From contig NZ_CP075184.1 in assembly GCF_020510705.1 (NCBI RefSeq), positions 186,001 to 250,000 of the forward strand: a stretch of 64,000 bases of DNA, read 5' to 3'. The notes beneath the pieces were generated by a model. That model did no database searches. It had not been told where the DNA came from and saw only the letters and a list, made by a program, of their open reading frames with translations. Both the position numbers and the translations under genes were made by a program. Source of the DNA: Acidovorax radicis. GTDB taxonomy: Bacteria > Pseudomonadota > Gammaproteobacteria > Burkholderiales > Burkholderiaceae_C. Shown piece after piece: positions 6,041 through 33,038 of the stretch (positions are counted from its first letter, which is position 1; each line of letters opens with the position of its first letter).

Positions 6041-6108
6041 TGTTTTGAGCGAAAAATGCCGCTAGCCCTTGTCAATCAAGCGCTTGCAGCTCACTTTTTT
6101 GATAGCAG
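6041..6108 (-). repeat. Type-A short palindromic repeat, copy 2
   Basis: On the minus strand: CTATCAAAAAAGTGAGCTGC, AAGCGCTTG, spacer, AAGGGCTAG, then CATTTTT. The element supplies the last codons and TGA stop of the thioesterase gene (6091-6576). Confidence 0.75.
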
Positions 6109-8970: not shown

Positions 8971-9350
8971 GGGGCACCCCCTTCGCGCACTGGCGTGAAC
9001 AGCACCAGCCCGCGCCCGTCCTTGTGTGCCACATGGGCCAACACGCGCAGGCCAATCACCACGGCCTCGGGCGCCACGCCCTCCACGCGGCTCATCATGC
9101 GCACGCCTTCATCCAGGTCGACCAGTGCCACGTTGTAGTGGCCGCCAGCGTCCACTTTGCGCGCGATCGTGCTCGTCGAATAGACAGTGCCCAGGCCGCC
9201 GGCGCGCACCCAGCGCAGGCCGCTGGCGCCGCAGTGCGGGCACAGCTCGCGCGGCGTGAATACGTGGCTTTGGCACTGCGGGCAGTGCTGTATGCAAATG
9301 CGGCCGGCGTCTAGCTCGGCCTGGTAATGGGTATGTGCGCTCAGGTGCAT
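8967..9350 (-). CDS. DUF35-type Zn-ribbon/OB-fold acyl-CoA-binding protein
   Basis: A 127-residue protein with an N-terminal rubredoxin-like zinc ribbon (CPQC at about 23-26 and CPHC at 37-40) and a C-terminal OB fold (GLGTVYSTSTIARKVDAGG). Such proteins bind thiolase-fold partners and deliver or hold acyl-CoA. The gene opens the operon and its stop overlaps the start of the thiolase-fold gene, which fits a two-subunit complex made in equal amounts. Confidence 0.88.
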   Translation of the reverse strand: MHLSAHTHYQAELDAGRICIQHCPQCQSHVFTPRELCPHCGASGLRWVRAGGLGTVYSTSTIARKVDAGGHYNVALVDLDEGVRMMSRVEGVAPEAVVIGLRVLAHVAHKDGRGLVLFTPVREGGAP

Positions 9351-15326: not shown

Positions 15327-15332
15327 GGCCCC

Positions 15333-16589: not shown

Positions 16590-17798
16590 TCAGATTCGCT
16601 CGAACACCGCCGCAATGCCCTGGCCGCCGCCGATGCACATCGTCTCCAGCCCGTAGCGGCCCTTGCGGCGCTGCAGCTCATGCAGCAGCGTGGCCAGAAC
16701 GCGCACGCCGGTGGCGCCGATGGGGTGGCCCAGCGAGATGCCTGAGCCGTTGACGTTGAGCTTGTGCGCGATGGCATCCTGGTCCTGCCATTCCCAGCCC
16801 TTGAGCACGGCCAGCACCTGGCAGGCAAACGCCTCGTTGAGTTCCACCAGGTCCATGTCTTCGAGTTGGAGGTTCAGGCGCGCCAGCAGCTTTTTCACGG
16901 CCGGCACCGGGCCAATGCCCATGTGCGAGGGCTCGCAGCCCGCCGCCGCCCAGCCTACCAGCGTGGCCATGGGCGTCAGGCCCAGCTCGGCCAGCTTGTC
17001 CTCGGCCACGATCAGGCAGGCGGCGCTCGCATCGTTTTGCTGGCTCGCGTTGCCGGCCGTGACGGTGCCGCCCGGCATCAGCGCGCGCAGCTTGGCCAGG
17101 CTTGCGGGTGTGGTCTCGGGCCGGAAGCCCTCGTCCTGGCTGAAAAGCACCGGGTCGCCCTTGCGCTGGGGCACCGGTACGGCAACGATCTCGTCGGCAA
17201 AGCGCCCCGCCGCCCAGGCCGCCGCCGCGCGCTGGTGGCTGCGCAGGGCATAGGCGTCGGCCTCTTCGCGGGTGATGCCGTAGTCGCGCGCCAGGTTCTC
17301 GGCGGTCTCGATCATTCCGCTGATCTTGCCGAAGCGCTCCACTGGCTGTGAGCGCTCGCGCCCGCGGTCCAGCCGGTCAAAAAAGCGCACGTTGCCCGAG
17401 CGAGCGCCCCAGCGCATGTCGGTGCTGTAGTACTCGATGTTGCTCATGCTCTCCACGCCGCCGGCAATCACGACGTCGGCGGCGCCGCTTTGCACCATCA
17501 TCGCGGCCGTGACGATGGCCTGCAGGCCGCCGCCGCAGCGGCGGTCCAGCTGCATGCCCGGCACCGACACCGGCAGCCCTGCCTGCAGCGCGGCCCAGCG
17601 GCCCACGCAGGGCACCTCGCTGTTGGCGTACGACTGGGCCAAGACCACGTCATCGATGCGCGCGGGGTCGATGCCGCTGCGCTGCACCACGGCACGCACG
17701 GTGGTGGCGGCCAGCTCCTCGACGGGCACGGGCCGCAGGCTGCCGCCGAAGGTGCCGACAGGGGTGCGAACGGGGGTGACGATGGCGGCTCTGCGCAT
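16590..17798 (-). CDS. Acetyl-CoA C-acyltransferase (thiolase)
   Basis: A 402-residue thiolase, cleaving 3-ketoacyl-CoA with CoA. The acylated Cys is in LDRRCGGGLQA (about residue 88), the catalytic His in LGHPIGATGVR and the second Cys in CIGGGQGIA, so the triad is complete. GNASQQNDASA is also typical. It is the fifth gene from the promoter of the leftward operon, 66 bp after the CoA-transferase with a type-A repeat in the gap. It would complete a beta-oxidation cycle with the hydratase and dehydrogenases. Confidence 0.94.
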   Translation of the reverse strand: MRRAAIVTPVRTPVGTFGGSLRPVPVEELAATTVRAVVQRSGIDPARIDDVVLAQSYANSEVPCVGRWAALQAGLPVSVPGMQLDRRCGGGLQAIVTAAMMVQSGAADVVIAGGVESMSNIEYYSTDMRWGARSGNVRFFDRLDRGRERSQPVERFGKISGMIETAENLARDYGITREEADAYALRSHQRAAAAWAAGRFADEIVAVPVPQRKGDPVLFSQDEGFRPETTPASLAKLRALMPGGTVTAGNASQQNDASAACLIVAEDKLAELGLTPMATLVGWAAAGCEPSHMGIGPVPAVKKLLARLNLQLEDMDLVELNEAFACQVLAVLKGWEWQDQDAIAHKLNVNGSGISLGHPIGATGVRVLATLLHELQRRKGRYGLETMCIGGGQGIAAVFERI

Positions 17799-17820: not shown

Positions 17821-17870
17821 ATAAAAATGGCCGCTGACGCTTATCAGATAAGCGCCACTAGCTATCAAGT
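17821..17870 (-). repeat. Type-A short palindromic repeat, copy 3
   Basis: Sense strand: TTGATAGCTAGTGGCGCTTA, spacer, TAAGCG, then GGCCATTTTTAT. The TGA stop of the CoA-transferase is inside the left edge. It is internal to an operon, between two co-directional genes. Confidence 0.75.
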
Positions 17871-19148
17871 TTGATGAAACGCCGCGCCACAGTGGCGCAG
17901 TGTTTCGTGGGCCTGGCGCTCCAGGTCCTCGCGGTGTTCGGGGGCGGCAATGTCGATCAGGCGGCGCACGCGGCGCGACAGCGGCTGGCCACGCAGGTCG
18001 GCCACGCCATGCTCGGTGACGATCAGGCCCGCGTCGCTGCGCGGTGTGCTCACGGGGCCCGACAACCGGGCCACGATGCGGGTCTTGCCCTTGGCGGTGG
18101 CGGGCAGCGCCACGATGGGCAGGCCGCCGTGGCTGCGCGCCGCGCCGCGCAAAAAGTCCACTGCACCACCCACGGCCCCCACATACACGCCAGCGGCCAC
18201 TTCGGCATTGATCTGGCCAGTCAGGTCCACCTCGATGGCCGCGTTGATGGCGGCCAGCTGCTGGCTGGCGGCGAGCACCTCGGGGTCGTGCGTGTAGTCG
18301 GTGCCGCGCAAGGCCAACTGGGGATTGCGGTGCGCCCAGCGGCGCAGCTTCTCGCTGCCCATCAGGATGCCGCCGATGCCCACGCCGGTGTCCAGGCTCT
18401 TCTTCGCGTTGGTCAGCACTCCGGCTTCGGCCAGGGCGGCAACGCCGTCGCCCACCGCACCGCTGTGCAGCCCCAGGTCGCGGTGGCCGTGCAGCGCGGC
18501 CAGCACGGCCTCGGGCAGGTTACCCACGCCCAGCTGCAGCGTGGCGCCGTTATCGATCAGTGCGGCGACATGGCGTGCAATGGCCTGCTCCACCGGGCCG
18601 GGCGCGGTGCGGTTTTGCTCCAGCGGTGGGTGCTCGGCGTCGATGAGCAGCGCGAAATCGCCGGCCTGCAGGTGCACGCTGCCGTGGGTCCAGGGGATGG
18701 CGGGGTTGACCTCGCCGATCACCACGCGCGCCTGCTCCAGCGCGGCGGGCAGGTATTCCTGCGCCAGGCCCAGGCTGTAGCGGCCCTCCTCGTCGGGGGG
18801 CGAGACCTGCAGCAGCACCACGTCAACGGGCAGCACACCGGCGCGGATCAGGCCGGGCAGGTGCGAGTAGTGGCTGGGCAGGATGTCGAGCACGCCGGCT
18901 TCGGCCAGGCGGCGGTGCGGCCCACCTGCGGCGTAGCCAAAAAAATCGATGGCATCGGCCTGCTCGGGCTGCAGCGTGTCCGATGCGCCAATGCCCACGA
19001 ACACCCGCAGCCGCCCGCCCTGCGCCAGCGCATGGCGGTGCGCCACCAGCGCGCGCGTGAGCGTCAGCGGCTCGGCCGTGGCCTGGCCCCACCACAGCGT
19101 GTCGCCGGGGCGGATCAGCGCCTGTAGCCGCTCTGCCAATAAGCTCAT
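17865..19148 (-). CDS. Acetyl-CoA hydrolase/transferase-family protein (class I CoA-transferase fold)
   Basis: A 427-residue member of the 4-hydroxybutyrate/acetate CoA-transferase family. It shows LQLGVGNLPEAVLAAL, GVLTNAKKSLD and the C-terminal GGAVDFLRGAARSHGG block. In active transferases the segment reads HSE, where the Glu forms the covalent glutamyl-CoA; here it is LGLHSGAVGDG, with Gly at residue 230. The enzyme may therefore be a hydrolase or use another residue. The ATG at 19148 is at the family start. Its stop codon lies in a type-A repeat. Confidence 0.82.
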   Translation of the reverse strand: MSLLAERLQALIRPGDTLWWGQATAEPLTLTRALVAHRHALAQGGRLRVFVGIGASDTLQPEQADAIDFFGYAAGGPHRRLAEAGVLDILPSHYSHLPGLIRAGVLPVDVVLLQVSPPDEEGRYSLGLAQEYLPAALEQARVVIGEVNPAIPWTHGSVHLQAGDFALLIDAEHPPLEQNRTAPGPVEQAIARHVAALIDNGATLQLGVGNLPEAVLAALHGHRDLGLHSGAVGDGVAALAEAGVLTNAKKSLDTGVGIGGILMGSEKLRRWAHRNPQLALRGTDYTHDPEVLAASQQLAAINAAIEVDLTGQINAEVAAGVYVGAVGGAVDFLRGAARSHGGLPIVALPATAKGKTRIVARLSGPVSTPRSDAGLIVTEHGVADLRGQPLSRRVRRLIDIAAPEHREDLERQAHETLRHCGAAFHQT

Positions 19149-19199
19149 GTCAATACTCCACGGCGTTGCGCGCCGCCAGCATCCGCTGTAACTGGCGCA

Positions 19200-19316: not shown

Positions 19317-20111
19317 TCATAGTTTTTCCCAGTCGAACCGCAGCGGCTCCTTGGCCTTGAAGCGCTGCACCGCGTCCTGGTGGTAGGCCGAGCCGCGGCA
19401 CATGGACTGGGCGTAGGACTCCAGCTCGGCGATGGTGCGCGCGTCGCTCTCGAAGGACTGGTTCATGATGGTCTTGGCCATACCGATGGCGGCCGTGGAC
19501 GCCTCGCCAAAGCGCCGCGCCAGCGCCCGCGCGGCCTCGGTCAGCGCGGCCCCGTCTTCGACGATGTCGTAGACCATGCCGAGCTGCTGGGCCTCGTCAG
19601 CATCGACCGTGCGCGCGGTGAAGACCAACTCCTTGGCTTTTTGCTGGCCCACGATGCGCGGCAGCAGGTGCAGGGCGCCCAGGTCGGGCACCAGGCCGAT
19701 GCGCCCGAACACCGCGCAGAACTTGGCACGGCGTGTGGCCAGTACAAAATCGGCCGCCAGCGCCAGGCTCAGGCCCGCGCCAAAGGCCGGGCCGTCCACG
19801 GCGGCGATCACGGGCTTTTCCAGGTTCACCAGCTCGGGGAACCACTGGTGCAGCTCGCGCATGCCGGTGCGAAACGCCAGGCCGGTGCGGCTGGTGTCGA
19901 GCATGGCCGAGATGTCACCGCCCGAGCAGAAGGCGCCGCCCGCGCCGGTGAGGATGACGGCATGCACCTGCGCGTCGTCACGCATCTGTGCAATCGCGGC
20001 GGCCAGGGCCGGGCGCATGTCCATGCTGAGCGCGTTGCGCGCTTCGGGGCGGTTCAGGGTGATGGTGCCGATGCCGTCCAGCACCGAGGTCAACACGGGG
20101 GATGCGCTCAT
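19317..20111 (-). CDS. Enoyl-CoA hydratase/isomerase family protein
   Basis: A 264-residue crotonase-fold enzyme. The oxyanion segments are GGAFCSGGDISAM and AAVDGPAFGAGLSLALAADF. At the second acid position it has RIGLVPDLGA, that is Asp as in PaaG-type isomerases, and the first Glu (FGxPE) is replaced by FCAVFGR. This favours a double-bond isomerase or PaaG-like role over a classical hydratase. The MaoC protein next to it could supply the hydratase step. The ATG at 20111 starts directly at the conserved domain. Confidence 0.9.
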   Translation of the reverse strand: MSASPVLTSVLDGIGTITLNRPEARNALSMDMRPALAAAIAQMRDDAQVHAVILTGAGGAFCSGGDISAMLDTSRTGLAFRTGMRELHQWFPELVNLEKPVIAAVDGPAFGAGLSLALAADFVLATRRAKFCAVFGRIGLVPDLGALHLLPRIVGQQKAKELVFTARTVDADEAQQLGMVYDIVEDGAALTEAARALARRFGEASTAAIGMAKTIMNQSFESDARTIAELESYAQSMCRGSAYHQDAVQRFKAKEPLRFDWEKL

Positions 20112-20135: not shown

Positions 20136-20195
20136 ATGAAAATGGGCTTTGGCGCTTGTGCAGAAAGCGCTGCTAGCTCACTTTTTGATAGTTCA
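20136..20195 (-). repeat. Type-A short palindromic repeat, copy 4
   Basis: Sense strand: CTATCAAAAAGTGAGCTAGC, AGCGCTTT, spacer, AAGCGCC, then CCCATTTTCAT. It begins at the stop codon of the MaoC gene and fills the gap to the next gene of the operon. Confidence 0.75.
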
Positions 20196-21086
20196 GACCA
20201 GCTCGGCAAACCCGTGGCTCAGCACCACCTTGTTGCGCTCCGCCACACGGGCGCGCAACTGAAATTGCCCCGCTTGCCCGGGCACGCGCCAGATCTCGGT
20301 CACCAGGGTCTCGCCCGGGTACACCGGCGCGGCAAAGCGGATGTCCAGCGCCTTCAGGCGCGTGGGGTCGCCCCCCGCGCACTGGCGCAGCACCGCGTGC
20401 GCCACCAGGCCATAGCTGGCCAGGCCGTGCAGGATGGGGCGCTCAAAGCCCGCCTTGGTGGCCACGGCCGGGTCGGCGTGCAATGGGTTGGTGTCGCCCA
20501 TCAGGCGGTACAGCAGCGCTGCCTCGGGGCGGATCGCTTGCGTGTTGGTGACGTCGGGCGCGCGGTCCTCGGGCGTGGGGGGCAGCGCGGGCAGCGGTGC
20601 GTCGCTGGGCTGGCCGCCGCCCTGCTGGCTGTAGCCGCCGTCGCCGCGCAAGAAGGTCACCTGCTGCACGGTGGCCAGCAGCTCGCCCGCGGCGGATTCG
20701 AGGCGCCGCTCCGTGATCATGATGGCGCCCTTGTCCTCCCCCTTGTCGGTCAGGTGCGTGATGCGGTTGTGGCCCACGACGTCGCCGCTGGCAGGCAGCG
20801 CCTGGTGCCAGCGCACCCGCTGCTCGCCGTGCAAGAGCTTCACCCAGTCGATGCCCGTGTCCGGCTCGCGCGCCCAGAAGCCGGGGTAGCCCAGCACCAC
20901 GGCTTGCGTGGGCAGGGCGCGCAGGCCGCCTTCCAGGCCCTCATAGACAAAGGGCAGGGCGGCGGCGTCCAGCGGGTCGTTGCCCAGCCCAAGGCTGAGC
21001 GCATACAGCATGGTTTCGCGTTCGGTGTAGTGCTGGTGCACGGGGGCAAAGGCCCGGTTTTTCAAGTGTTGGTAGTCAATAGCCAT
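20193..21086 (-). CDS. MaoC-type hotdog enoyl-CoA hydratase (hydratase-2 type)
   Basis: A 297-residue double-hotdog protein. The C-terminal hotdog carries the hydratase-2 motif as DTNPLHADPAVATKAGF followed by ILHGLASYGLVAHAV, the Asp/His pair of (R)-specific enoyl-CoA hydratases and of the hydratase domain of peroxisomal multifunctional enzyme 2. The next upstream gene encodes an SDR resembling the dehydrogenase domain of that same enzyme, so the two may form a bacterial split version. The ATG at 21086 is chosen over an in-frame upstream codon because homology starts at YQHLKNRAFAPV. Confidence 0.88.
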   Translation of the reverse strand: MAIDYQHLKNRAFAPVHQHYTERETMLYALSLGLGNDPLDAAALPFVYEGLEGGLRALPTQAVVLGYPGFWAREPDTGIDWVKLLHGEQRVRWHQALPASGDVVGHNRITHLTDKGEDKGAIMITERRLESAAGELLATVQQVTFLRGDGGYSQQGGGQPSDAPLPALPPTPEDRAPDVTNTQAIRPEAALLYRLMGDTNPLHADPAVATKAGFERPILHGLASYGLVAHAVLRQCAGGDPTRLKALDIRFAAPVYPGETLVTEIWRVPGQAGQFQLRARVAERNKVVLSHGFAELV

Positions 21087-21260: not shown

Positions 21261-22178
21261 CTACACCGGATCCCAGCTGAACACGTCGGCCGAGCGGTCC
21301 ATGGGAACGAACGAGGCCTTGAGCGCCGGCATGCCGTGCTCGGCGATGAACTCGGGCGTCCAGCCCTCGCTGCGGTGCACCGAGCGCAGGGGGCGCGGTT
21401 GGCTCATCAAAAAGATTTCGTTGTTGCGCACGGCAAACACCTGGGCGTTCACATCTTTGGCCTGGTCGGACAGCAGGTACACGGCCAGCGGCGCGATCTT
21501 GTTGGGTGTCATCTGCTGGATCTTGGCCACGCGCGCCTGCTGCTCGGGCGTGTCGGTGGGGATGGAGCCGATCATGCGGCTCCAGGCAAACGGCGCGATG
21601 CAGTTGGAGCGCACGTTGAACTTCTGCATGTCCAGCGCAATGCTCTTGGACAGGGCCGTCAGGCCCAGCTTGGCGGCGCTGTAGTTGGCCTGGCCCAGGT
21701 TGCCGATCAGGCCCGAGGTGGAGGTCATGTGCACGAAGGCACCGCTCTCCTGTTCCTTGAAGTGGTTGGCGGCGGCGCGCGCCATGAAATAGCTGCCATA
21801 CAGGTGCACCTTGATCACGGCGTCCCACTCGTCCAGGCTCATCTTGTGAAAGAACCGGTCGCGCAGGATGCCCGCGTTGTTGACCACGCCGTCGATGCGG
21901 CCGAAGTGGTCCAGCGCGCACTGGATGATGCGGCCGGCGGCAGCAGACTCGGCCACGCTGTCCATGTTGGCCACGGCCTGGCCGCCAGCGGCCTTGATCT
22001 CATCGACCACCTTCTGCGCGGGGCCGGCGTCGGTGCCTTCGCCCGTGGTGGAGGTCCCGATGTCATTCACCACCACCTTGGCGCCGGCCGCCGCCAGGGC
22101 CAGCGCCATGTCGCGCCCGATGCCGCCGCCAGCCCCCGTGACCACCACTACCTTGTCCTGCACCATCTTCTGCGTCAT
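21261..22178 (-). CDS. SDR-family 3-hydroxyacyl-CoA dehydrogenase (MFE-2-like)
   Basis: A 305-residue short-chain dehydrogenase. The NAD-binding motif is VTGAGGGIGRDMALALAAAG, the NAG motif is VVNNAGILRDRFFHKM, and the catalytic Ser and YxxxK are in TSTSGLIG and YSAAKLGL. The long RDRFFHKMSLDEWD segment and the acidic-side insertion (GTSTTGEGTD) resemble the (3R)-hydroxyacyl-CoA dehydrogenase part of peroxisomal multifunctional enzyme 2. It is first in the leftward operon, divergent from the ich-like gene. Confidence 0.9.
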   Translation of the reverse strand: MTQKMVQDKVVVVTGAGGGIGRDMALALAAAGAKVVVNDIGTSTTGEGTDAGPAQKVVDEIKAAGGQAVANMDSVAESAAAGRIIQCALDHFGRIDGVVNNAGILRDRFFHKMSLDEWDAVIKVHLYGSYFMARAAANHFKEQESGAFVHMTSTSGLIGNLGQANYSAAKLGLTALSKSIALDMQKFNVRSNCIAPFAWSRMIGSIPTDTPEQQARVAKIQQMTPNKIAPLAVYLLSDQAKDVNAQVFAVRNNEIFLMSQPRPLRSVHRSEGWTPEFIAEHGMPALKASFVPMDRSADVFSWDPV

Positions 22179-22372: not shown

Positions 22373-23278
22373 ATGGCGACCATGACAGAACCCACCATTG
22401 ACAACGCCCTGCTCGCGCACCTGCAGACCTGGCAGGGCCAAAGCGAAACCCTGGGCGACACCCTCACGGCGATGCCCGTGGCGGCGCTGTCGGCCACGCT
22501 GGACCGTGACGACCCGGCGCCCGCCGCTGGCACCGCCCTGCCACCGCTGTGGCACTGGCTGTATTTTTTGCCGCACGCCCGGCAAAGCGAGATCGGCCCC
22601 GACGGCCACCCCAAGCGCGGGGGCTTTTTGCCACCCGTGCCGCTGCCGCGCCGCATGTGGGCGGGCGGGCGCCTGCGCTGGGAAATGCAGGGCGATGGCG
22701 CCAACCCGCTGCGCGTGGGCCAGGAGGTGCAGCGCACGTCCACCATTCAGTCGGTCAAGCACAAGGCCGGGCGCACGGGCGAGCTGCTTTTTGTGCTGGT
22801 GGAGCACCAATACCGCAATGCCCAGGGTCTGGCGCTGACCGAAGAGCACGACATCGTCTACCGCAGTGCTGCCCAGCCCGGTGACCCGGCACCCGCACCG
22901 CAAAAGCCGCCCCTGGACGGCCAGGCCGCCTGGTCGCGCACCATCGTGCCCGACGACGTGCTGCTGTTCCGCTACTCCGCGCTCACCTTCAACGGCCACC
23001 GCATCCATTACGACCGCAAGTACGTGACCGAGGTTGAGGGCTACCCCGGCCTGATCGTGCACGGCCCGCTGATCGCCACGCTGCTGCTGGACCTGCTGCG
23101 TCGCAGTCTGCCCGGCGTGCAGGTGGCCACGTTCGACTTCCGCGCGGTGCGCCCCACCTTCGATCTGCACCCCTTCAGCGTGCACGGCAAGCCATCGGCC
23201 GACGGCAAGACCGTGGAGCTGTGGGCCCAGGACCACGAGGGCTGGCTGACCATGCAGGGCACGGCCACGCTGGCCTGA
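22373..23278 (+). CDS. ich: MaoC-fold itaconyl-/mesaconyl-CoA hydratase-like protein
   Basis: A 301-residue double-hotdog hydratase. The catalytic block in the second half is YSALTFNGHRIHYDR followed by YPGLIVHGPLIATLLLDLL, as in mesaconyl-C4-CoA hydratase, itaconyl-CoA hydratase (Ich) and mitochondrial HTD2 relatives; PLPRRMWAGGRL is also typical. Gene order (acyl-CoA dehydrogenase, CaiB-type transferase, MmgE/PrpD, citramalyl-CoA-lyase-like) matches the P. aeruginosa itaconate locus, so Ich is the favoured reading: hydration of itaconyl-CoA to citramalyl-CoA. ATGs at 22373 and 22382 are both possible, without a clear ribosome site. It opens the rightward operon. Confidence 0.75.
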   Translation: MATMTEPTIDNALLAHLQTWQGQSETLGDTLTAMPVAALSATLDRDDPAPAAGTALPPLWHWLYFLPHARQSEIGPDGHPKRGGFLPPVPLPRRMWAGGRLRWEMQGDGANPLRVGQEVQRTSTIQSVKHKAGRTGELLFVLVEHQYRNAQGLALTEEHDIVYRSAAQPGDPAPAPQKPPLDGQAAWSRTIVPDDVLLFRYSALTFNGHRIHYDRKYVTEVEGYPGLIVHGPLIATLLLDLLRRSLPGVQVATFDFRAVRPTFDLHPFSVHGKPSADGKTVELWAQDHEGWLTMQGTATLA

Positions 23279-23335
23279 AAACTACCAAATCAATAGCTGC
23301 TAGCGCTTGCTACGAAAGCGCTAGAGCCCAAAAAC
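23279..23335 (+). repeat. Type-A short palindromic repeat, copy 5
   Basis: AATCAATAGCTGC, TAGCGCTTGC, spacer, AAAGCGCTAGAGCCCAAAA. It begins at the stop codon of the ich-like gene and fills most of the gap to the acyl-CoA dehydrogenase. This is one of the best-preserved copies. Confidence 0.8.
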
Positions 23336-23349
23336 ACTTGAAAACCACC

Positions 23350-24510
23350 ATGATCCACCAGCCCGACCAGTACCAGGAAATCCGCGACGCCGTGCGCGCC
23401 CTCTGTGCCCAGTTCCCCGACGAATATTTCCGCAAGGTCGACGAGGCCCGAGGCTACCCCGAGGCGTTTGTCGATGCCCTGACCAAGGCCGGCTGGATGG
23501 CCGCGCTGATCCCGCAGGAATACGGCGGCTCGGGCCTGACCATGGCCGAGGCCTCGGTCATCATGGAAGAGATCAACCGCAGCGGCGGCAACTCCGGCGC
23601 CTGCCATGGCCAGATGTACGTGATGAACGCCATCGTGCGCAGCGGCAGCGAGGCGCAAAAGCAAAAGTACCTGCCCAAGATCGCCTCGGGCGAGTTGCGC
23701 ATCCAGTCCATGGGCGTGACCGAGCCCACCACCGGCAGCGACACCACCAAGCTCAAGACCACGGCGGTGAAGAAGGACGGCCGCTGGGTCATCAACGGGC
23801 AAAAGGTCTGGATCTCGCGCATCCAGCACAGCGATCTGATGATTCTGCTGGCCCGCACCACGCCTGCCGACCAGGTGACAAAGCGCTCCGACGGCCTGAG
23901 CTGCTTCCTGATCGACCTGCACCAGGCGATTGGCAACGGCCTCACCGTGCGCCCCATCCTGAACATGGTCAACCACGAGACCAACGAGCTGTTCTTCGAC
24001 AACCTCGAAATCCCCGAGGACGCGCTGCTGGGCGAAGAGGGCAAGGGCTTCAAGACCCTGCTGGACGGCCTGAACGCCGAGCGCACCCTGATTGCCGCCG
24101 AGTGCATTGGCGATGGCTACTGGTTCATCGACCGCGCCACCAAGTACGCCAAGGAGCGTGTGGTGTTCAACCGCCCCATCGGCCAGAACCAGGGCGTGCA
24201 GTTCCCGATTGCCGATGCCTTCATCGAGCTGGAAGCCGCCAACCTGATGCGCTGGAAGGCCTGCGAGAAGATCGACGCCCACCAGAACGCAGGCGCCGAG
24301 GCCAACATGGCCAAGTACCTGGCGGCCAAGGCCAGCTGGGAGGCCGCCAACGTCTGCCTGCAGACCCACGGCGGCTTTGGCTTCGCATGCGAATACGACA
24401 TCGAGCGCAAATTCCGCGAAACGCGCCTGTACCAGGTGGCGCCGATATCGACCAACATGATTTACAGCTACGTGGCCGAGCATATCCTCGGGCTTCCACG
24501 CTCCTTCTGA
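23350..24510 (+). CDS. Acyl-CoA dehydrogenase of the itaconate-type cluster
   Basis: A 386-residue FAD enzyme. It shows PQEYGGSGLTMAEASVIMEE, MGVTEPTTGSDTTKLKT and THGGFGFACEYDIERKFRET, the acyl-CoA dehydrogenase fold. The usual YEGT catalytic Glu near the C-terminus is replaced by YQVAPISTNM, so the base must come from elsewhere or the reaction differs. A homologous dehydrogenase lies in the P. aeruginosa itaconate cluster with no firmly known role; methylsuccinyl-CoA-like substrates are a reasonable guess. The ATG at 23350 follows the repeat. The next gene is 19 bp downstream. Confidence 0.9.
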   Translation: MIHQPDQYQEIRDAVRALCAQFPDEYFRKVDEARGYPEAFVDALTKAGWMAALIPQEYGGSGLTMAEASVIMEEINRSGGNSGACHGQMYVMNAIVRSGSEAQKQKYLPKIASGELRIQSMGVTEPTTGSDTTKLKTTAVKKDGRWVINGQKVWISRIQHSDLMILLARTTPADQVTKRSDGLSCFLIDLHQAIGNGLTVRPILNMVNHETNELFFDNLEIPEDALLGEEGKGFKTLLDGLNAERTLIAAECIGDGYWFIDRATKYAKERVVFNRPIGQNQGVQFPIADAFIELEAANLMRWKACEKIDAHQNAGAEANMAKYLAAKASWEAANVCLQTHGGFGFACEYDIERKFRETRLYQVAPISTNMIYSYVAEHILGLPRSF

Positions 24511-24529
24511 AACCGAGCAAAGGCCTTTT

Positions 24530-25711
24530 ATGACCCGCCCCCTCGACGGCATCACCGTCGTCTCGCTCGAGCACGCGGTGGCCGCGCCGTTTTGCACGCG
24601 CCAGCTGGCCGACCTGGGTGCGCGCGTCATCAAGGTCGAGCGCCCCGGCAGCGGCGACTTCGCGCGTGGCTACGACCAGCGCGTGAGGGGCCAGTCGTCG
24701 CACTTCACCTGGATCAACCGCAGCAAGGAGAGCCTGGCGCTCGATGCGAAGCAGCCGCAGGCCAAGGCCGCGCTGCTGCAGCTCTTGAAGACGGCCGACG
24801 TGCTGGTGCAGAACCTGGCGCCCGGCGCGGCCGCGCGCATGGGCCTGTCGTACGAAGCCCTGAAGGCCCACAACCCTCGGCTCATCGTCTGCGACATCAG
24901 CGGCTATGGTGCCGACGGGCCGTATCGCGACAAGAAGGCCTACGACCTGATGATCCAGAGCGAGGCAGGGTTTCTGTCCGTGACGGGCACGCCCGAGACG
25001 CCCTCCAAATCCGGCATCTCGGTGGCCGACATTGCCGCAGGCATGTATGCCTACACCAACATCCTGTCGGCCTTGCTGCTGCGCGGCAAGACGGGCGAGG
25101 GCAGCCATATTGACGTGTCCATGCTCGAAGCCATGGGCGAGTGGATGGGCTACCCGATGTACTACGCCTACGACGGCGCGCCCCCGCCGCCGCGCACCGG
25201 CGCATCGCACGCCAGCATCTACCCCTATGGGCCGTTCGTGGCGGGCGATGGCAAGACGGTGATGCTGGGCCTGCAAAACGAGCGCGAGTGGAAGGCCTTT
25301 TGCGACACCGTGCTGCAGCGCCCCGAGGTGGCCACAGACGCGCGCTTCTGTTCCAACGGCCAGCGCAACGCCCACCGCGACGCGCTGCAGGCGCTGATCC
25401 TGCAAGCGTTCTCCACGCTCAGCGCCGCCCAGGTCGTCGAGCGTCTGGACGCCGCCGGCATCGCCAACGCGCGCGTCAACGACATGGCCGACCTGTGGGC
25501 GCACCCACAGCTGGTCGCGCGCCAGCGCTGGTGCAGCGTGGGCACGCCTGCGGGCGCGGTGCCCGCGCTGCTGCCACCGGGTGTGAACAGCGCGTTCGAT
25601 TACCGCATGGACGCCGTGCCCGCTGTGGGCCAGCACAACGCCGCCATCCTGGCCGAGCTGGGCTGGAGCGCCGAGCAGATCGACGCACTGCAGGCGCCCC
25701 AACCCCTCTGA
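24530..25711 (+). CDS. ict: CaiB/BaiF CoA-transferase, itaconate/mesaconate CoA-transferase-like
   Basis: A 393-residue class III CoA-transferase with VVSLEHAVAAPFCTRQLADL, GARVIKVERPGSGDFARGYD and the glycine loop GRGxGS as GKTGEGSHIDVSML. At the nucleophile position (Asp in formyl-CoA transferase) it has Glu200 (SMLEAMGEW). The segment WMGYPMYYAYDGAPPPPRTG followed by HASIYPYGPF is what I associate with C4/C5-dicarboxylate CoA-transferases. Position in the operon suggests transfer of CoA from succinyl-CoA to itaconate or mesaconate. AAAGG precedes the ATG at 24530. Confidence 0.75.
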   Translation: MTRPLDGITVVSLEHAVAAPFCTRQLADLGARVIKVERPGSGDFARGYDQRVRGQSSHFTWINRSKESLALDAKQPQAKAALLQLLKTADVLVQNLAPGAAARMGLSYEALKAHNPRLIVCDISGYGADGPYRDKKAYDLMIQSEAGFLSVTGTPETPSKSGISVADIAAGMYAYTNILSALLLRGKTGEGSHIDVSMLEAMGEWMGYPMYYAYDGAPPPPRTGASHASIYPYGPFVAGDGKTVMLGLQNEREWKAFCDTVLQRPEVATDARFCSNGQRNAHRDALQALILQAFSTLSAAQVVERLDAAGIANARVNDMADLWAHPQLVARQRWCSVGTPAGAVPALLPPGVNSAFDYRMDAVPAVGQHNAAILAELGWSAEQIDALQAPQPL

Positions 25712-25712
25712 T

Positions 25713-25760
25713 TCAAAAAACATAGCTGGCAGCGCTTTTCCTGCCTGCCCTGGAGCCCTC
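25713..25760 (+). repeat. Type-A short palindromic repeat, copy 6 (degenerate)
   Basis: CATAGCTGGCAGCGCTTTTC, then a changed right arm and GGAGCCC. It lies between the ict-like stop and the MmgE/PrpD ATG, and GGAG of its right edge serves as the ribosome site of the next gene. Confidence 0.6.
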
Positions 25761-25761
25761 A

Positions 25762-27138
25762 ATGAAGCAAGAAACCCAAGCCGCCATCCACCCTCTGGCC
25801 CAGTTGGCCGCCACGCTGCAATGGAGCGACGTGCCCGCACCCGTGCAGCGCCGCGCCGAAGACCTGTGGGTGGACTGGTTCGGCTCGGTGCTGGCCGGCT
25901 GCCAGGCGCGGCCCGTGGCCAGCATCGCGCGCTTTGCGCTGTCGCAGGGCCCGGCCTCGGGCCCCAGCGAAGTCATTGGTCGCGGTGCCAGCAGCTCGCC
26001 GATGATGGCTGCGCTGGCCAACGCCGCCGCCGCGCATGTGGCCGAGCAGGACGATGTGCACAACGGCTCGGTGTTCCACCCGGCGGCCGTAGTGTTCCCG
26101 CCCGCGCTGGCCGTGGCACAAAGCATTGGCGCCAGCGGCGCGCAGCTCATGGCCGCTTGCGTGGCGGGCTACGAGGTGGGCATCCGCGTGGGCGAATTTC
26201 TGGGCCGTAGCCACTACAAGGTGTTCCACACCACGGCCACGGCCGGCACGCTGGCCGCCGCCGCCGCCGTGGGCCGCCTGCTGGAGCTGACGCCCGCGCA
26301 GATGCAGCATGCGTTTGGCTCGGCCGGCACGCAGTCGGCGGGGCTGTGGGAATTTTTGCGCACCGCAGCCGACAGCAAGCAGCTGCACACCGCGCACGCC
26401 GCCGCAGCGGGGCTGATGGCCGCCTACCTGGCCAAGGACGGCTTCACCGGTGCGCAGGACATCTTCACCGGGCCGCAGGGCATGGCCGCGGGCATGTCCA
26501 GCGATGCCAACCCGGCCAGGCTGACGGACGGGCTGGAGGGTGGAAAGGTGAGGCGCTGGGCCACGGCCGAGACGTCGTTCAAATGGCATGCCTCATGCCG
26601 CCACACGCACCCGGCCGCCGACGCGCTGCAGCAGGTCATGCGCGAGCACGGCCTGGCGCCCGCCGACATCGCGCAGGTGGTCTGCCATGTGCACCAGGGC
26701 GCCATCGACGTGCTGGGGCCGGTGGTCTCGCCCGCCACGGTGCACCAGAGCAAGTTCTCCATGGGTACGGTGCTGGCATTGGCGGCGCGTTTTGGCCATG
26801 CGGGTTTGACCGAATTCGACGCGCAGTTCCTGGCCCCGGACACGGTGGCCCTGCGCGAGAAGGTGCGCATGGAGCTGGACCCCGAGGTGGACGGCGCCTA
26901 CCCGCAGCGCTGGATCGGCAAGGTCACCGTGCAGACGACCGACGGCCGCATGCTGCACGGCCGGGTGGACGAGCCCAAGGGCGATCCCGGCAACACCCTG
27001 TCGCGCGAGGAAATCACGGCCAAGGCCTTGCGCCTGGCGGCCTATGGCGGCGCGGTGCCTGCCGTGCAGGCCGAGGCCGCCGTGCAGCACCTGTGGCGGG
27101 TGCAGGAGTGGCCGCGCGTGCAAACGCTGCTGGCGTGA
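25762..27138 (+). CDS. MmgE/PrpD-family protein
   Basis: A 458-residue member of the family containing 2-methylcitrate dehydratase and cis-aconitate decarboxylase. The family signature HVAEQDDVHNGSVFHP (about residues 92-107) is complete, followed by VAGYEVGIRVGEFLG and the C-terminal WHASCRHTHPAADAL segment. In an itaconate-type cluster a dehydratase or decarboxylase making or isomerising a C5/C6 acid is plausible, but the reaction is not known. The start at 25762 has TGGAG 7 bases upstream. Confidence 0.85.
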   Translation: MKQETQAAIHPLAQLAATLQWSDVPAPVQRRAEDLWVDWFGSVLAGCQARPVASIARFALSQGPASGPSEVIGRGASSSPMMAALANAAAAHVAEQDDVHNGSVFHPAAVVFPPALAVAQSIGASGAQLMAACVAGYEVGIRVGEFLGRSHYKVFHTTATAGTLAAAAAVGRLLELTPAQMQHAFGSAGTQSAGLWEFLRTAADSKQLHTAHAAAAGLMAAYLAKDGFTGAQDIFTGPQGMAAGMSSDANPARLTDGLEGGKVRRWATAETSFKWHASCRHTHPAADALQQVMREHGLAPADIAQVVCHVHQGAIDVLGPVVSPATVHQSKFSMGTVLALAARFGHAGLTEFDAQFLAPDTVALREKVRMELDPEVDGAYPQRWIGKVTVQTTDGRMLHGRVDEPKGDPGNTLSREEITAKALRLAAYGGAVPAVQAEAAVQHLWRVQEWPRVQTLLA

Positions 27139-27166
27139 CCCCCGTTTTCCAAAAAAGAAAGCCTCC

Positions 27167-28036
27167 ATGTTTGATTCGATGGCCCAGGCCTGTTCCTTTC
27201 TGTTCGTGCCCGCCACCCAGCCCGAGCGGCTACCCAAGGCCCTGGCCAGCGGCGCCGACGTGGTGATCGCCGACTGGGAAGACGCCGTGGCCCCCGCCGA
27301 CAAGGAACGCGCCCGTGCCGCACTGGCGCAGGCCGTGGGCACGCTGGAGAAATCGGCGCGTGCGCGCCTGCTGGTGCGCATCAACAGCGAGGGTTCCCCG
27401 TGGTTTGCTGCCGACCTGCAGGCCCTGGCGCAACTCACGGCGCAGGGACTTGCCGGTGCCGTGGTGCCGAAGGCCGAGCGCGCATCAACGCTGCAGGCTG
27501 TGGTCCAGGCGGGTGGGCCGCAGGCGGCCCTGGTGCCACTGGTGGAAAGCGTGGCGGGTCTTGCCGCCGCCGACGCGCTGGCGGCCGCGCCGCAGGTGGT
27601 TCGCCTGGCCTTCGGGCACCTGGACTTCCAGGTCGATGCCGGCATGGCCTGTGGTGACACCGAAGAAGAACTGCTGCCCGTGCGCCTGGCCCTGGTATTC
27701 GCCTCGCGCCGCGCGGGGCTGGCCGCACCCCTTGACGGCGTGACGGTGGACACGCGCAACCCCGAGCGCATGGCCCGCGACGCCGAGCGCGCCCGGCGCA
27801 TGGGCTTTGGCGGCAAGCTGTGCATCCACCCGGCACAGGTGCCGGTGCTGCATGCCGCCTTCGACCCCGACGAAGCGGCCGTGGCCCACGCGCTGCGCGT
27901 GCAGCAGGCGCTGCAGCAGGCCGGTGGCGGCGTCTGCGTGCTTGACGGTCGCATGGTGGATGCGCCGGTGCTGGCGCAGGCGCAGCACACCCTGCAGCGC
28001 CACGCCCGCGCGCAGCAGCGCCTGGCCTTTCGCTGA
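27167..28036 (+). CDS. ccl: HpcH/HpaI/CitE-family CoA ester lyase, citramalyl-CoA lyase-like
   Basis: A 289-residue TIM-barrel lyase of the CitE-like family. It shows SFLFVPATQPERLPKAL, GADVVIADWEDAV (Mg-binding acid region), RINSEGSPWF (CoA/substrate Arg), VPKAERA, PLVESVAGL (Glu) and RLAFGHLDFQVDAGM (Asp). The expected reaction is cleavage of (S)-citramalyl-CoA to acetyl-CoA and pyruvate, the last step of itaconate breakdown. Malyl-CoA lyase activity is the main alternative. The ATG at 27167 follows an AAAGAAAG stretch 6 bases upstream and lies 28 bp after MmgE/PrpD. Confidence 0.85.
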   Translation: MFDSMAQACSFLFVPATQPERLPKALASGADVVIADWEDAVAPADKERARAALAQAVGTLEKSARARLLVRINSEGSPWFAADLQALAQLTAQGLAGAVVPKAERASTLQAVVQAGGPQAALVPLVESVAGLAAADALAAAPQVVRLAFGHLDFQVDAGMACGDTEEELLPVRLALVFASRRAGLAAPLDGVTVDTRNPERMARDAERARRMGFGGKLCIHPAQVPVLHAAFDPDEAAVAHALRVQQALQQAGGGVCVLDGRMVDAPVLAQAQHTLQRHARAQQRLAFR

Positions 28037-29433: not shown

Positions 29434-30555
29434 CTAGGGTGCTGAGCGCTGCCGCCACACCGCCTGCGCGCCAGCCTGGCCCAGCCCTTCCATGATCGCC
29501 TGCGTGTGCGCGCCCGGCAGGCAGGCGTCTGCGGGTGTATAGGCCGCGCCATCGAAGCGCGGTGCGGGGGTGGCCTGCAGCACGCCCTGGTGTTCGGCGT
29601 ACACGCCGCGCGCACGCATGTGGGGGTGCTGCGCGGCCTCCAGGGGGCTGAGCACGGCGCCAAAGCAGGCATCCGTGGGCTCCAGCAGCGCCTGCCAGTG
29701 CGCGCGTGGCTGCGCCAGGAAGAGGGTGGCAAGGCGCGCGCGGCGCACGGGCCAGACGGGCTTGTCCCATTGCGCACCCACGAAATCAGGATCTGCCGCG
29801 AGCCCCAGCGCATCGAGCAGCACGTCGTAGAACTGCGGCTCCAGGGCGCCGATGGTGATGTGCTTGCCGTCTGCGCAGACATAGGTGTCGTAGAACGGCG
29901 CGCTGTCGTGGATGCTCTGCCCGCGCACGTCGGCCACCAGGCCATTTTGGCGCGCGCTGAGCATCAGGTTCAGCATGTGGGCCGAGCCGTCCACGATGGC
30001 CGCGTCCACCACCGTGCCGCGGCCCGTGGCGCGCGCCTGCACGATGCCCGACAGCAGCCCCGTCATCAGGTAGAGGGCACCGCCGCCGATGTCGCCCAGC
30101 ACGGCAAAGGGCGACACGGGCCGCGCGTCAAAGGGGCCGCAGCCCCACAGCGCGCCACTGACGGCGGCGTAGTTGGTGTCGTGTCCGGCACGCGGCGCCA
30201 GCGGCCCGCTCTGGCCCCAGCCGGTCATGCGCCCGTACACCAGGCGGGGGTTGATGCGTTGGCACTCCTCGGGGCCCAGGCCCAGGCGCTCCATCACGCC
30301 GGGGCGCATGCCCTCAATGAGCGCATCGGCCTCGGCCACCAGCGCCAGCACCAGCTGGCGGCCCCCCTCGGTCTTGAGGTCGGCGAACACCGAGCGCTTG
30401 CCCCGGTTGAGCAGCGGGCCCGTGGGCGTCTTGCCCTTGGCCTCGCGCACCACCGAGATCACATCCGCCCCCAGGTCGGCCAGGTGCATGGCACAAAACG
30501 GCCCCGGCCCCAGGCCACCAATCTCCAGCACACGTACGCTGTCCAGAACCTTCAC
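29434..30555 (-). CDS. CaiB-family protein, alpha-methylacyl-CoA racemase-like
   Basis: A 373-residue protein. The fold start is VKVLDSVRVLEIGGLGPGPF. GRMTGWGQSGPLAPRAGHD, NYAAVSGALWG and the long insertion VSPFAVLGDIGGGALYLMTG match alpha-methylacyl-CoA racemase (AMACR), with the catalytic His in AGHD and the Asp in TVVDAAIVDG. Such enzymes epimerise 2-methylacyl-CoA so that dehydrogenases can act on it. No ATG fits: the GTG at 30555 with GGAGAC five bases upstream is the start. It ends the leftward operon, 43 bp after the IclR gene, and implies branched-chain substrates. Confidence 0.85.
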   Translation of the reverse strand: MKVLDSVRVLEIGGLGPGPFCAMHLADLGADVISVVREAKGKTPTGPLLNRGKRSVFADLKTEGGRQLVLALVAEADALIEGMRPGVMERLGLGPEECQRINPRLVYGRMTGWGQSGPLAPRAGHDTNYAAVSGALWGCGPFDARPVSPFAVLGDIGGGALYLMTGLLSGIVQARATGRGTVVDAAIVDGSAHMLNLMLSARQNGLVADVRGQSIHDSAPFYDTYVCADGKHITIGALEPQFYDVLLDALGLAADPDFVGAQWDKPVWPVRRARLATLFLAQPRAHWQALLEPTDACFGAVLSPLEAAQHPHMRARGVYAEHQGVLQATPAPRFDGAAYTPADACLPGAHTQAIMEGLGQAGAQAVWRQRSAP

Positions 30556-30598
30556 GATGTCTCCTTCGGTTGTGTTGTGTGTTGCTGGAGAGGGCGCG

Positions 30599-31387
30599 TC
30601 ACGACAGGCCCGAGGTCCCAAGCACGCTCTCTACCGACCGCACCAGCGTGCGCAGGCGCGGGCCGACCTCGGTCTCCAGCTTGCCGCACAGGGGGCTGTA
30701 GACGGGCAGCGTCACGGCGAACACCCACAGCTCGCCGTCCTGCGGCTTGGACATGGCCACGGCGATCGACTCCAGCTCGCGGTGCAGGTCGCCGTGGCTG
30801 CGGCAAAAGCCGTTCGCGGCCAGATCGTGGCGTGCATCGTCGAGCCGCTGATCCAGCCAATCGGCGCGCTGCGGGTCTGTGGCGCGCAGGTCGCGCAGGT
30901 AGGCGTTGCGCTCCATATCGGGCAGGCCCAGCAGATAGGCGCGGCCCGAGGCGGTGCGCGACAGCGAGGTGCGCACGCCCACCTCGGGCCGGAAGATGGG
31001 GTTGCCCAGGCTGTTGGCCTGCTCCACAAGGCACAGCTCGCGCCGAAAGCCCACCGCCAGCTGCACTTGCCCCTCGGTCAGGTCGGCCAGCGCCTGCATC
31101 TGCGGCCGGGCGAATTGCCGCAGGGCCAGGCGGGTGAGCACCGGCGAGGACAGGCCGAGCAGGCCCAGCCCGGGCACGTACTTGGACAGCCGCTCCGAGT
31201 AGCGCAGCAGGCCCAACTCGCACAAGGTGTCCGTGAGGCGGAACAGCGTGGGCTTGGGCAGGCCGGTCAGGTCCATCAGTTCCTTGGCGCTGAGCTCCTG
31301 GCATTTGTTCGAAAAGCACCGCAATATGGAAACGCCGCGCACCAGGGCGCTGACCAATTTGCCGTCTGGATCTGCGTTCACGTTCAC
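30599..31387 (-). CDS. IclR-family transcriptional regulator
   Basis: A 262-residue regulator with an N-terminal winged helix (LVSALVRGVSILRCFS, ELSAKELMDLTGLPKPTLFR) and a C-terminal effector domain (LSRTASGRAYLLGL, AVTLPVYSPLCGK). No ATG is present. The GTG at 31387 has GAGG five bases upstream. A GTG at 31444 that overlaps the stop of the preceding hydratase gene (GTGA) is the alternative and would add 19 residues. Lying inside the acyl-CoA operon it probably regulates this locus, with an acyl-CoA or acid as effector. Confidence 0.88.
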   Translation of the reverse strand: MNVNADPDGKLVSALVRGVSILRCFSNKCQELSAKELMDLTGLPKPTLFRLTDTLCELGLLRYSERLSKYVPGLGLLGLSSPVLTRLALRQFARPQMQALADLTEGQVQLAVGFRRELCLVEQANSLGNPIFRPEVGVRTSLSRTASGRAYLLGLPDMERNAYLRDLRATDPQRADWLDQRLDDARHDLAANGFCRSHGDLHRELESIAVAMSKPQDGELWVFAVTLPVYSPLCGKLETEVGPRLRTLVRSVESVLGTSGLS

Positions 31388-31440
31388 ATGGACCTCGAAA
31401 AACCGCTGATTTTCGCTTGATTCATTGGCAGCCCACGCTC

Positions 31441-32235
31441 TCACGCCTGCGGCCACTGAAAGGGCAGCGGTTTTTTCTCCAGAAAGCAGTGCACGGCCTC
31501 GCGGTGTTCGGGCGTGCCCATGGCCAGGGCCTGGGCGTTGGCTTCCTGCTCCAGCAGCGAAGGCAGGTCGCTGGCGGTCAGGCTCAGCGAGCGCTTGATC
31601 AGGCTCAGCGCCACCGGCGAGGCGTTTACAAAGCTGTGCGCGATCACGTGGGCGCGTGCTTGCAGTGCCTCGGGTTCGGCCAGTTCAAAGGCAATGCCCA
31701 GCCGCAGCGCTTCCTGCGCAGACACCTCGCGCCCCGACAGCATCAGCTCACGCACACGCTGCACGCCGACGACGCGCGGCAGGGTATAGAACGCCGCGCA
31801 GTCCGGCACCACGCCCATGCGGATGAAAGACATGGCAAAGCGCGCGCGTGTGCTGGCGATGATGAAGTCGGCCGCCAGCGCCAAGCTGAAGCCCGCGCCA
31901 TAGGCCGCGCCATCCACGGCCGCGACCACCGGCTTGTCCAGCAGCATCAGGTCCTTGAGCCAGTCGTGCAGGCTGGTCAGGCGGCGGCGCCAGCCACCGT
32001 TGTCCAGGCCGCTGGCCGCTATGTTGCCCAGGTCGCCGCCCGAGCAGAAATGTGCGCCCGCGCCCGTCAGCACCAGCGCGCGAATGGCCGGGTCGCCCTG
32101 CACCTGGCGCACCACCTCGGCCATCTCACCGCGCATGGCGGGGTCGAAGGCGTTGCGTTTGTCGGGGTTGCTCAGGGTCAGCGTGGCCACGCCGTCCTGC
32201 ACCTCGAAAGCGATGCGTTCATAGCTTGTGGTCAT
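31441..32235 (-). CDS. Enoyl-CoA hydratase/isomerase family protein
   Basis: A 264-residue crotonase-fold enzyme. Oxyanion segments are GAHFCSGGDLGNIA and AAVDGAAYGAGFSLALAADF. The catalytic acid region is FIRMGVVPDCAAFYTLPRVV, with Asp where PaaG-type isomerases have it. Its ATG overlaps the stop of the preceding SDR (ATGA), so both are translationally coupled. That SDR resembles 2,4-dienoyl-CoA reductase, and a reductase plus isomerase pair is what is needed to process unsaturated acyl-CoAs. It is near-identical in layout, not in sequence, to the gene at 19317. Confidence 0.9.
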   Translation of the reverse strand: MTTSYERIAFEVQDGVATLTLSNPDKRNAFDPAMRGEMAEVVRQVQGDPAIRALVLTGAGAHFCSGGDLGNIAASGLDNGGWRRRLTSLHDWLKDLMLLDKPVVAAVDGAAYGAGFSLALAADFIIASTRARFAMSFIRMGVVPDCAAFYTLPRVVGVQRVRELMLSGREVSAQEALRLGIAFELAEPEALQARAHVIAHSFVNASPVALSLIKRSLSLTASDLPSLLEQEANAQALAMGTPEHREAVHCFLEKKPLPFQWPQA

Positions 32236-33038
32236 GCCGCGCTCCGGGGCACATAGGACGCGCGCATGTCGCGTCCACCGTGCAGCGATGAGCCACCGTC
32301 CACGGGGATGACGGCGCCCGTCACAAAGCTGGCCTGCGGCGACGACAGGAACAGCGCCACGTGGGCAATGTCCTCCAGCGTGCCCATGCGTTGCAACGGC
32401 ACGGTGGCGACCGCGTTGGCCAGCGCCTCAGGGGTGGGCGCAAGCCGGCGCATGCCTTCGGTATCGGCAATGGGGCCGGGCGCTATGGCGTTCACGCGCA
32501 CGCCTGCCTCGCCCCATTCCATGGCCAGCACGCGCGTCATCATGTCGATGCCGGCCTTGGCCGCGCAGGCGTGCACCTGGTACATGGTGGGGTTGACGCC
32601 CTGTGGCGCCGAAATGTTGATGACGCTGGCACCTGGCTTCCTCAGCATCGGATAGGCTAGGCGCAACACGTGGAAAGTGCCGTTCAGGTCAATGTCGATC
32701 ACGGTCTTGAAGCCGTTGGGCGACAAGTCCTTGGCGGGGGCAATGAAGTTGCCCGCAGCGCCCGAGACCAGCACATCGATGTCACCGAACTGCGCATGCG
32801 CCTGGCGTAGCGCGGTTTCCACCGCCACCGGGTCGCGCACATCGGTGCTGATGCCCAGCGCCTGCGCACCCAGCGCGCGCAGCCCGTCGGCCGCCTGCTG
32901 CACCTTGTCGGGCGATCGGCTCATCACGGTGACATGGGCGCCCGCGCGGGCAAACGCCTGGGCGATGCCGAGATTGATGCCACTGCTGCCGCCAGCCACG
33001 AACACGTGGCGGCCTGCGAAGGTTGGGGGGATGTGCAT
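32232..33038 (-). CDS. SDR-family 2,4-dienoyl-CoA reductase-like protein
   Basis: A 268-residue SDR. The cofactor motif is VFVAGGSSGINLGIAQAFA. The catalytic region reads YQVHACAAKAGIDMMTR with RVNAIAPGPIADTEGMRR. The QVHAxxAKA segment and the GPI-TEGxRR stretch closely resemble peroxisomal 2,4-dienoyl-CoA reductase (DECR2), a branch in which the usual YxxxK Tyr is absent; here Ala stands four before the Lys. An NADPH-dependent reduction of dienoyl-CoA is therefore favoured over alcohol oxidation. The start at 33038 is 9 bp after the Bug gene stop. Confidence 0.82.
   Translation of the reverse strand: MHIPPTFAGRHVFVAGGSSGINLGIAQAFARAGAHVTVMSRSPDKVQQAADGLRALGAQALGISTDVRDPVAVETALRQAHAQFGDIDVLVSGAAGNFIAPAKDLSPNGFKTVIDIDLNGTFHVLRLAYPMLRKPGASVINISAPQGVNPTMYQVHACAAKAGIDMMTRVLAMEWGEAGVRVNAIAPGPIADTEGMRRLAPTPEALANAVATVPLQRMGTLEDIAHVALFLSSPQASFVTGAVIPVDGGSSLHGGRDMRASYVPRSAA

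Follow-up and report, generated by a model that had tools for sequence, protein, structure and literature searches.

We found that the block of five genes at positions 22373..28036 of a stretch of Acidovorax radicis DNA is, with a probability of about 0.9, a methylsuccinate/itaconate operon of the type known from Pseudomonas aeruginosa and Cupriavidus necator. The whole stretch that was analysed, of 64,000 nucleotides, is called the window here; it covers positions 186001-250000 of a 4,995,154-bp single-contig genome. By itself the block is nothing out of the ordinary within the described operon type and only widens its range. What is new here is that the operon, judging from the distribution of genes among related genomes, is tied to a larger conserved acyl-coenzyme A (acyl-CoA) module in this lineage. 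In the literature searched, which left most subscription papers outside reach, we found no description of such a link.

A sequence-only reading of the window had placed five genes here, and the open reading frames, their strand and their Pfam families all agree with it. The five genes lie on the + strand, and in order their products belong to FAS1_DH_region (an HTD2/MaoC-like hydratase), acyl-CoA dehydrogenase, CoA_transf_3 (CaiB), MmgE_PrpD and HpcH_HpaI (CitE). We call them ich, mcd, ict, msi and ccl (Table 1). The intergenic gaps are 71, 19, 50 and 28 bp, and a gene of the major facilitator superfamily (MFS) follows ccl after 87 bp on the same strand. Because all of these gaps are short, they suggest that the genes would be read as a single transcript. 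A divergent operon opens with a short-chain dehydrogenase/reductase (SDR) gene 194 bp upstream of ich.

As the comparison reference we used P. aeruginosa PA7 (L071), which was fetched by name together with 79 other Pseudomonas-group loci. (Labels with L, G and g are our own for loci, genomes and genera.) By tblastn with the window proteins, identity to PA7 was 49% for Ich, 76% for Mcd, 58% for Msi, 72% for Ict and 48% for Ccl. Profiles (hidden Markov models) were made from 69-80 Pseudomonas-group cluster members per family, and on these the window proteins scored in the orthologue range for Mcd (727 bits; orthologues 683-765, paralogues at most 402), Ict (698 bits; 608-720, at most 389) and Ccl (235 bits; 210-271, at most 136). 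The same was true of Msi on the profile built here, as distinct from the published Msi model and its cut-off (630 bits; orthologues 603-711, the genome's own paralogues 294 and 252). The top match of Ich in the PDB was 8khg, a Pseudomonas itaconyl-CoA hydratase (E 6e-73), and those of Ccl were 9nzb and 8khl, a Pseudomonas acyl-CoA lyase. Thus Ich and Ccl fall with Pseudomonas itaconate enzymes, and not with non-itaconate subfamilies, and Ict is close to its PA7 counterpart. The catalytic residues proposed for Msi, Ict and Ccl are conserved in the window proteins, as is the family Asp motif S[VI]ADI of Ict. Ich occurs as a single copy in its own genome at E<=1e-10 and stands in the tree among Burkholderiaceae-type members, with several long branches; we assign it because of its top PDB match, its neighbouring genes and this tree position. 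Orthologues of all five proteins of the P. aeruginosa-type cluster are therefore present, with msi in an mcd-containing block, and the earlier view of the block as an itaconate-type cluster is borne out.

Several observations weigh against this assignment. Ich and Ccl share only 48-49% identity with the Pseudomonas-type enzymes that were tested. The Ich profile scores run continuously from 203 to 301 bits, so that cluster members are not set apart from other homologues, and the window protein scores 286. The proposed catalytic set of Msi (H88, E91, H102, Y148, H152, K202 and K266 in PA0881 numbering) is intact in the window protein, but the genome's two other MmgE/PrpD proteins largely keep it too, and we dropped it as evidence. 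Finally, Ccl reached 150 bits on the NCBIfam model RipC_Ccl, below the cut-off of 375, and by RipC the block does not fall with the Yersinia RipABC-type itaconate cluster. We rejected this miss as an argument against membership because the PA7 Ccl, with 157 bits, is likewise under the cut-off; since both proteins fall short, the cut-off marks the Yersinia type.

The window Msi (25762-27138) carries a four-residue insertion absent from six aligned homologues. In isovaleryl-CoA and long-chain acyl-CoA dehydrogenases the catalytic base is a Glu of helix G. A Glu at this position (E244 in the window Mcd, 23350-24510) was present in 110 of 110 Mcd orthologues of at least 65% identity, the window included, and at YEGT, where acyl-CoA dehydrogenases usually have it, none of the 110 had a Glu.

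The sequence-only reading took it to be unsettled what the dehydrogenase and the MmgE/PrpD protein do. Both functions have been published: the two proteins are an (RS)-methylsuccinyl-C4-CoA dehydrogenase and an (S)-(R)-methylsuccinate isomerase, respectively (PMC12290011, PMC9875883). Gonner et al. (2025) characterised the C. necator and P. aeruginosa orthologues biochemically (PMC12290011), and de Witt et al. (2023) arrived at these roles by genetics, via growth phenotypes in Pseudomonas putida, whose strain KT2440 by itself uses neither methylsuccinate nor itaconate (PMC9875883). The suggestion that the two extra genes provide an entry for methylsuccinate was right and is already in print in both papers. 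According to Gonner et al., Ict prefers (R)-methylsuccinate, the isomerase is inactive on CoA esters and methylsuccinyl-C1-CoA is a dead end; the isomerase was found in 1767 species, 36.4% of these with all five genes, and differently organised clusters are mentioned (PMC12290011).

The five activities were shown by others for orthologues, and by analogy the same activities would be expected in this organism, with the operon in use. Msi would equilibrate (S)- and (R)-methylsuccinate, and Ict would transfer CoA from succinyl-CoA onto C4 of the (R) form, or onto itaconate. Mcd would oxidise methylsuccinyl-C4-CoA to mesaconyl-C4-CoA. Ich would then hydrate this product, or isomerise and hydrate itaconyl-CoA, to yield (S)-citramalyl-CoA, which Ccl would cleave to acetyl-CoA and pyruvate.

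The changed gene order noted in the sequence-only reading is real in comparison with P. aeruginosa: CaiB and MmgE/PrpD are exchanged, and 68 of the 80 named Pseudomonas-group loci read Ich-ACAD-MmgE-CaiB-CitE. As an unusual feature, however, it was rejected. Among 40 hand-picked Ich loci of the family, all five genes were present in 15, and all 15 have the order of the window; given this agreement, the order is not due to chance. Other loci of the set miss CitE alone (3/40), have Ich-CaiB-CitE (6/40) or have Ich alone (8/40). Outside the set, Comamonadaceae OTU4NAUVB1 (L189) reads Ich-Mcd-Ict-Ccl-TctC-Msi, G177 (L162) is rearranged, and Variovorax paradoxus VAI-C (L198) has Ccl on the opposite strand beside genes for electron-transfer flavoprotein (ETF). 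In this last locus (16700-19235) both ETF subunit genes lie between msi and ccl, which fits ETF as the electron acceptor of Mcd. Two loci, L191 (9016-13326; Ich, CaiB and CitE) and L193 (6412-12486; Ich and a CaiB homologue), combine these genes with an adenylosuccinate-lyase/PcaB-like gene, 4-oxalomesaconate tautomerase and DctA, and probably serve another dicarboxylate pathway.

Around the block, the window encodes acyl-CoA ligases, hydratases, SDRs, thiolases, an SCPx thiolase with its DUF35 partner, a thioesterase, a Cat-type CoA-transferase and several TctC-type proteins. Besides Mcd, two acyl-CoA dehydrogenases were confirmed by Pfam, at 6573 and 38946. We counted three of these genes, SDR1, SCPx and ACAD3, together with Msi in 200 genomes of the family, our own included. 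Identity thresholds were set by eye and differ per gene; any second copy with a lower identity was left out, as were partial matches (for example G138 for the MFS gene and G018 for the MmgE control). Msi was carried by 56 of the 200 genomes. SDR1 (at least 75% identity) occurred in 24, of which 23 had Msi, 19 on the same contig and 15 within 50 kb. The corresponding numbers were 22, 20, 16 and 13 for SCPx (at least 69%) and 24, 21, 17 and 13 for ACAD3 (at least 70%). All 18 genomes that hold the three genes together carry Msi. In G069 and G175 the distance between SDR1 and Msi is 45 bp, and in each of six genera (g1, g72, g73, g87, g92 and g96) one genome has both SDR1 and Msi while at least one has neither.

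As controls we used an unrelated MmgE/PrpD gene of the same genome and a CaiB gene. The first was found in 20 genomes, 13 of them with Msi (p 3e-4), and the second in 12, nine with Msi (p 7e-4; both by Fisher tests that ignore phylogeny). Because the controls are also enriched with Msi, the co-occurrence reflects in part genomes rich in catabolic genes. On the other hand, neither control lay within 50 kb of Msi in any genome, so that the close linkage seen for the module genes is absent from the controls, although the control CaiB was 63-68 kb from Msi, just beyond the limit, in three genomes.

One possibility for this observation is that the block is the terminal part of a larger pathway, in which the module (ligases, TctC, ACAD3, SCPx/DUF35, enoyl-CoA hydratases, SDRs, MaoC, thiolases, thioesterase and Cat) would degrade a methyl-branched acid ending in methylsuccinate or methylsuccinyl-CoA. 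Such a pathway is compatible with a methylsuccinate/itaconate operon and concerns its main physiological substrate. We consider it possible, at somewhat less than even odds. The linkage counts above speak for it, as does a plasmid of Cupriavidus pinatubonensis (L194) on which ACAD3 (84%), thiolase (90%), Cat (76%), MaoC (80%) and Mcd (81%) orthologues are joined. In addition, methylsuccinyl-CoA has been described to arise in Cupriavidus from the breakdown of 4-methylcatechol (PMC6449761). Given the isomerase's inactivity on CoA esters, Msi acts on the free acid only, and therefore a thioesterase or Cat step would free methylsuccinate ahead of Msi and Ict; release by the thioesterase at 6091-6492 or by Cat would account for an association of the module with Msi in addition to Mcd. 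In contrast, Mcd is not stereoselective, so that a C4-ester would need no Msi. Msi also occurs without SDR1 in 33 genomes, so that the block stands alone in many; where both are present they are far apart on one contig in four genomes and on separate contigs in four more. One genome of g19 has Msi only, and G110 has SDR1 only. The blindness of the Fisher tests to phylogeny, the differing thresholds and the enrichment of the controls likewise count against it.

The C. pinatubonensis stretch (strain HN-2, plasmid p2; L194 3230-9460) contains no ich, ict, msi or ccl.

A LysR regulator may link the operon and the module. The LysR protein of the window is 50%, 88% and 77% identical to those encoded beside ich in PA7, L032 and L058, respectively. 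In the window its gene stands by ACAD3 and SCPx, inside the module and 16 kb from ich. Homologues likewise adjoin module genes in L169, L170, L172 and L173, and adjoin Ich in Pseudomonas and others. Of 86 loci, mostly of Pseudomonas, 76 had the motif TTCGG-N5-CCGAA with at most 2 mismatches in the 300 bp before the LysR start, but upstream of the window LysR the best site had 3 mismatches. The gap between SDR1 and Ich holds one site with 2 mismatches (22309-22323), which 107 of 1000 random 300-bp pieces of the window matched or bettered. The motif count in the window equals that in shuffles, and no shared operator was established by this search.

The sequence-only reading had also proposed a larger precursor. 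The conserved linked module gives this circumstantial support but no substrate can be named, and it is plausible that a larger precursor would enter by way of methylsuccinate. We found no pathway in a literature search on methyladipate and methylsuccinyl-CoA beta-oxidation, and a search on Polaromonas JS666 had the same outcome. It could be speculated that in the Burkholderiaceae-type lineage the methylsuccinate operon forms the lower half of an undescribed pathway, in which the SDR1/SCPx-DUF35/ACAD3/ligase module would shorten a methyl-branched acid, which might be alicyclic or dicarboxylic, down to methylsuccinate, with the itaconate-type LysR taken over as control; in this full form the proposal is tentative and rather unlikely. 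Gonner et al. raise the question of the origin of methylsuccinate, and of the reason why soil bacteria retain two enzymes for it (PMC12290011). If the block does terminate a larger pathway, the question of where soil bacteria encounter methylsuccinate would be answered, and the module is a concrete gene set, conserved with the isomerase across several genera, that can be tested as the source of methylsuccinate.

The MFS gene had been read as a replacement for the TRAP transporter of P. aeruginosa. It does follow ccl, and neither a dioxygenase gene nor a TRAP gene was seen among the block genes, nor do IctPQM-like TRAP genes adjoin the cluster (no TRAP search was made in the rest of the genome). 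The MFS gene also adjoins the operon in G010, G004, G142 and G178, and C. necator lacks a TRAP carrier and its importer is not known (PMC12290011). However, replacement is weakly supported by the distribution of the gene. Orthologues at least 60% identical occur in 12 of the 200 genomes (G138, with two partial pieces, left out), of which seven carry Msi, five of them within 50 kb; these five are the window and four close kin. The five without Msi include both other sampled members of the window's genus, and in G088 and G068 the two genes are on separate contigs. None of seven loci fetched from MFS genomes without Msi, or with Msi on another contig, had C5 genes beside the MFS gene. In L157 it stands with a second CaiB gene and not with the block, and it may belong with that neighbour in the window as well. 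We therefore think it unlikely that the MFS protein is a dedicated C5-dicarboxylate importer of the operon.

That the block acts on another C5 dicarboxylate, its methylsuccinate/itaconate activity being incidental, is very improbable: Ich/Ccl homologues of other pathways do exist, as in L191 and L193, and C. necator is described to have a second Ich of this type (PMC12290011), but such clusters lack Mcd and Msi, the window Mcd and Ict are nearer PA7 than the C. necator Ict is to PA0882 (60%, PMC12290011), and the profile scores of Mcd, Ict, Msi and Ccl are those of orthologues.

Table 1. Features of the window (positions in the window; the start of the TctC-type gene at 15333..16286 was set computationally).
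Feature	Position	Strand	Basis
LysR regulator, orthologue of one beside ich elsewhere	5095..6009	+	identity to PA7, L032 and L058 LysR
4HBT thioesterase	6091..6492	-	Pfam 4HBT; 38-46% homologues in module loci
ACAD3, acyl-CoA dehydrogenase	6573..7730	-	24/200 genomes at >=70%
SCPx, SCP2/lipid-transfer-type thiolase	7762..8970	-	22/200 genomes at >=69%; PDB 4u4e thiolase, 7pxp benzoylsuccinyl-CoA thiolase subunit
DUF35/ChsH2-type OB-fold partner of SCPx	8967..9350	-	Pfam OB_ChsH2_C, zf-ChsH2
AMP-forming acyl-CoA ligase	13818..15326	-	60-79% homologues in several module loci
TctC-type solute-binding protein	15333..16286	-	homologues beside C5 block or module; same-type window neighbours are Pfam TctC
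Thiolase	16590..17798	-	NCBIfam NF004853, 706.7 bits, cut-off 551
Acetyl-CoA hydrolase/transferase, Cat family	17865..19148	-	Pfam AcetylCoA_hyd_C
ECH1, enoyl-CoA hydratase/isomerase	19317..20111	-	family match
MaoC-type hydratase, MFE-2 hydratase 2 like	20193..21086	-	family match
SDR1, 3-hydroxyacyl-CoA dehydrogenase-like SDR, heads divergent operon	21261..22178	-	24/200 genomes at >=75%
ich, predicted itaconyl-CoA / mesaconyl-C4-CoA hydratase, HTD2-type hotdog	22373..23278	+	PDB 8khg, PA7 orthology
mcd, predicted (RS)-methylsuccinyl-C4-CoA dehydrogenase	23350..24510	+	function by orthology to PA0879 (PMC12290011)
ict, predicted itaconate / (R)-methylsuccinate CoA-transferase, CaiB, family III	24530..25711	+	PA7 orthology, profile score
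msi, predicted (S)-(R)-methylsuccinate isomerase, MmgE/PrpD	25762..27138	+	PA7 orthology, profile score
ccl, predicted (S)-citramalyl-CoA lyase, CitE-like	27167..28036	+	PDB 9nzb/8khl, PA7 orthology
MFS transporter, possible importer	28124 (ATG)..29374	+	Pfam MFS_1
Second CaiB-type CoA-transferase, adjoins MFS gene	29434..30621	-	beside MFS orthologue also in L157, L036, L038, L031, L033
IclR regulator	30599..31396	-	family match
ECH2 and SDR2 (dienoyl-CoA reductase-like), linked module	31441..33038	-	one or both homologues beside SDR1 in L174, L175, L180, L183, L184, L188

Solitary TctC-type binding proteins are encoded at 12814-16286, 33048-34046 and 40145-43969, and five were confirmed by Pfam.

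The bbs gene set for benzylsuccinate beta-oxidation pairs the BbsAB thiolase with a DUF35/OB-fold protein, and the window module likewise pairs a thiolase with a protein of this kind. The match to BbsAB (PDB 7pxp) is, however, distant (E 3e-34), and we do not claim the module as a bbs member. The Burkholderiaceae-type Ich-CaiB-CitE clusters share the three itaconate enzymes with the window but are without mcd and msi, and hence offer no methylsuccinate entry. The P. aeruginosa cluster PA0878-PA0886, compared via PA7, has orthologues of ich, mcd, msi, ict and ccl and of the LysR gene, there adjacent; unlike it, the window has msi and ict in exchanged places, lacks a PA0880-like lactonase and adjacent TRAP genes, and has its LysR gene at a distance. 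Compared by its description, C. necator E6A55_22580-22600 comprises these five families too, and what lies near them is a TctC-type protein, not TRAP (PMC12290011), whereas the window has an MFS gene downstream of ccl and no TctC gene between msi and ccl.

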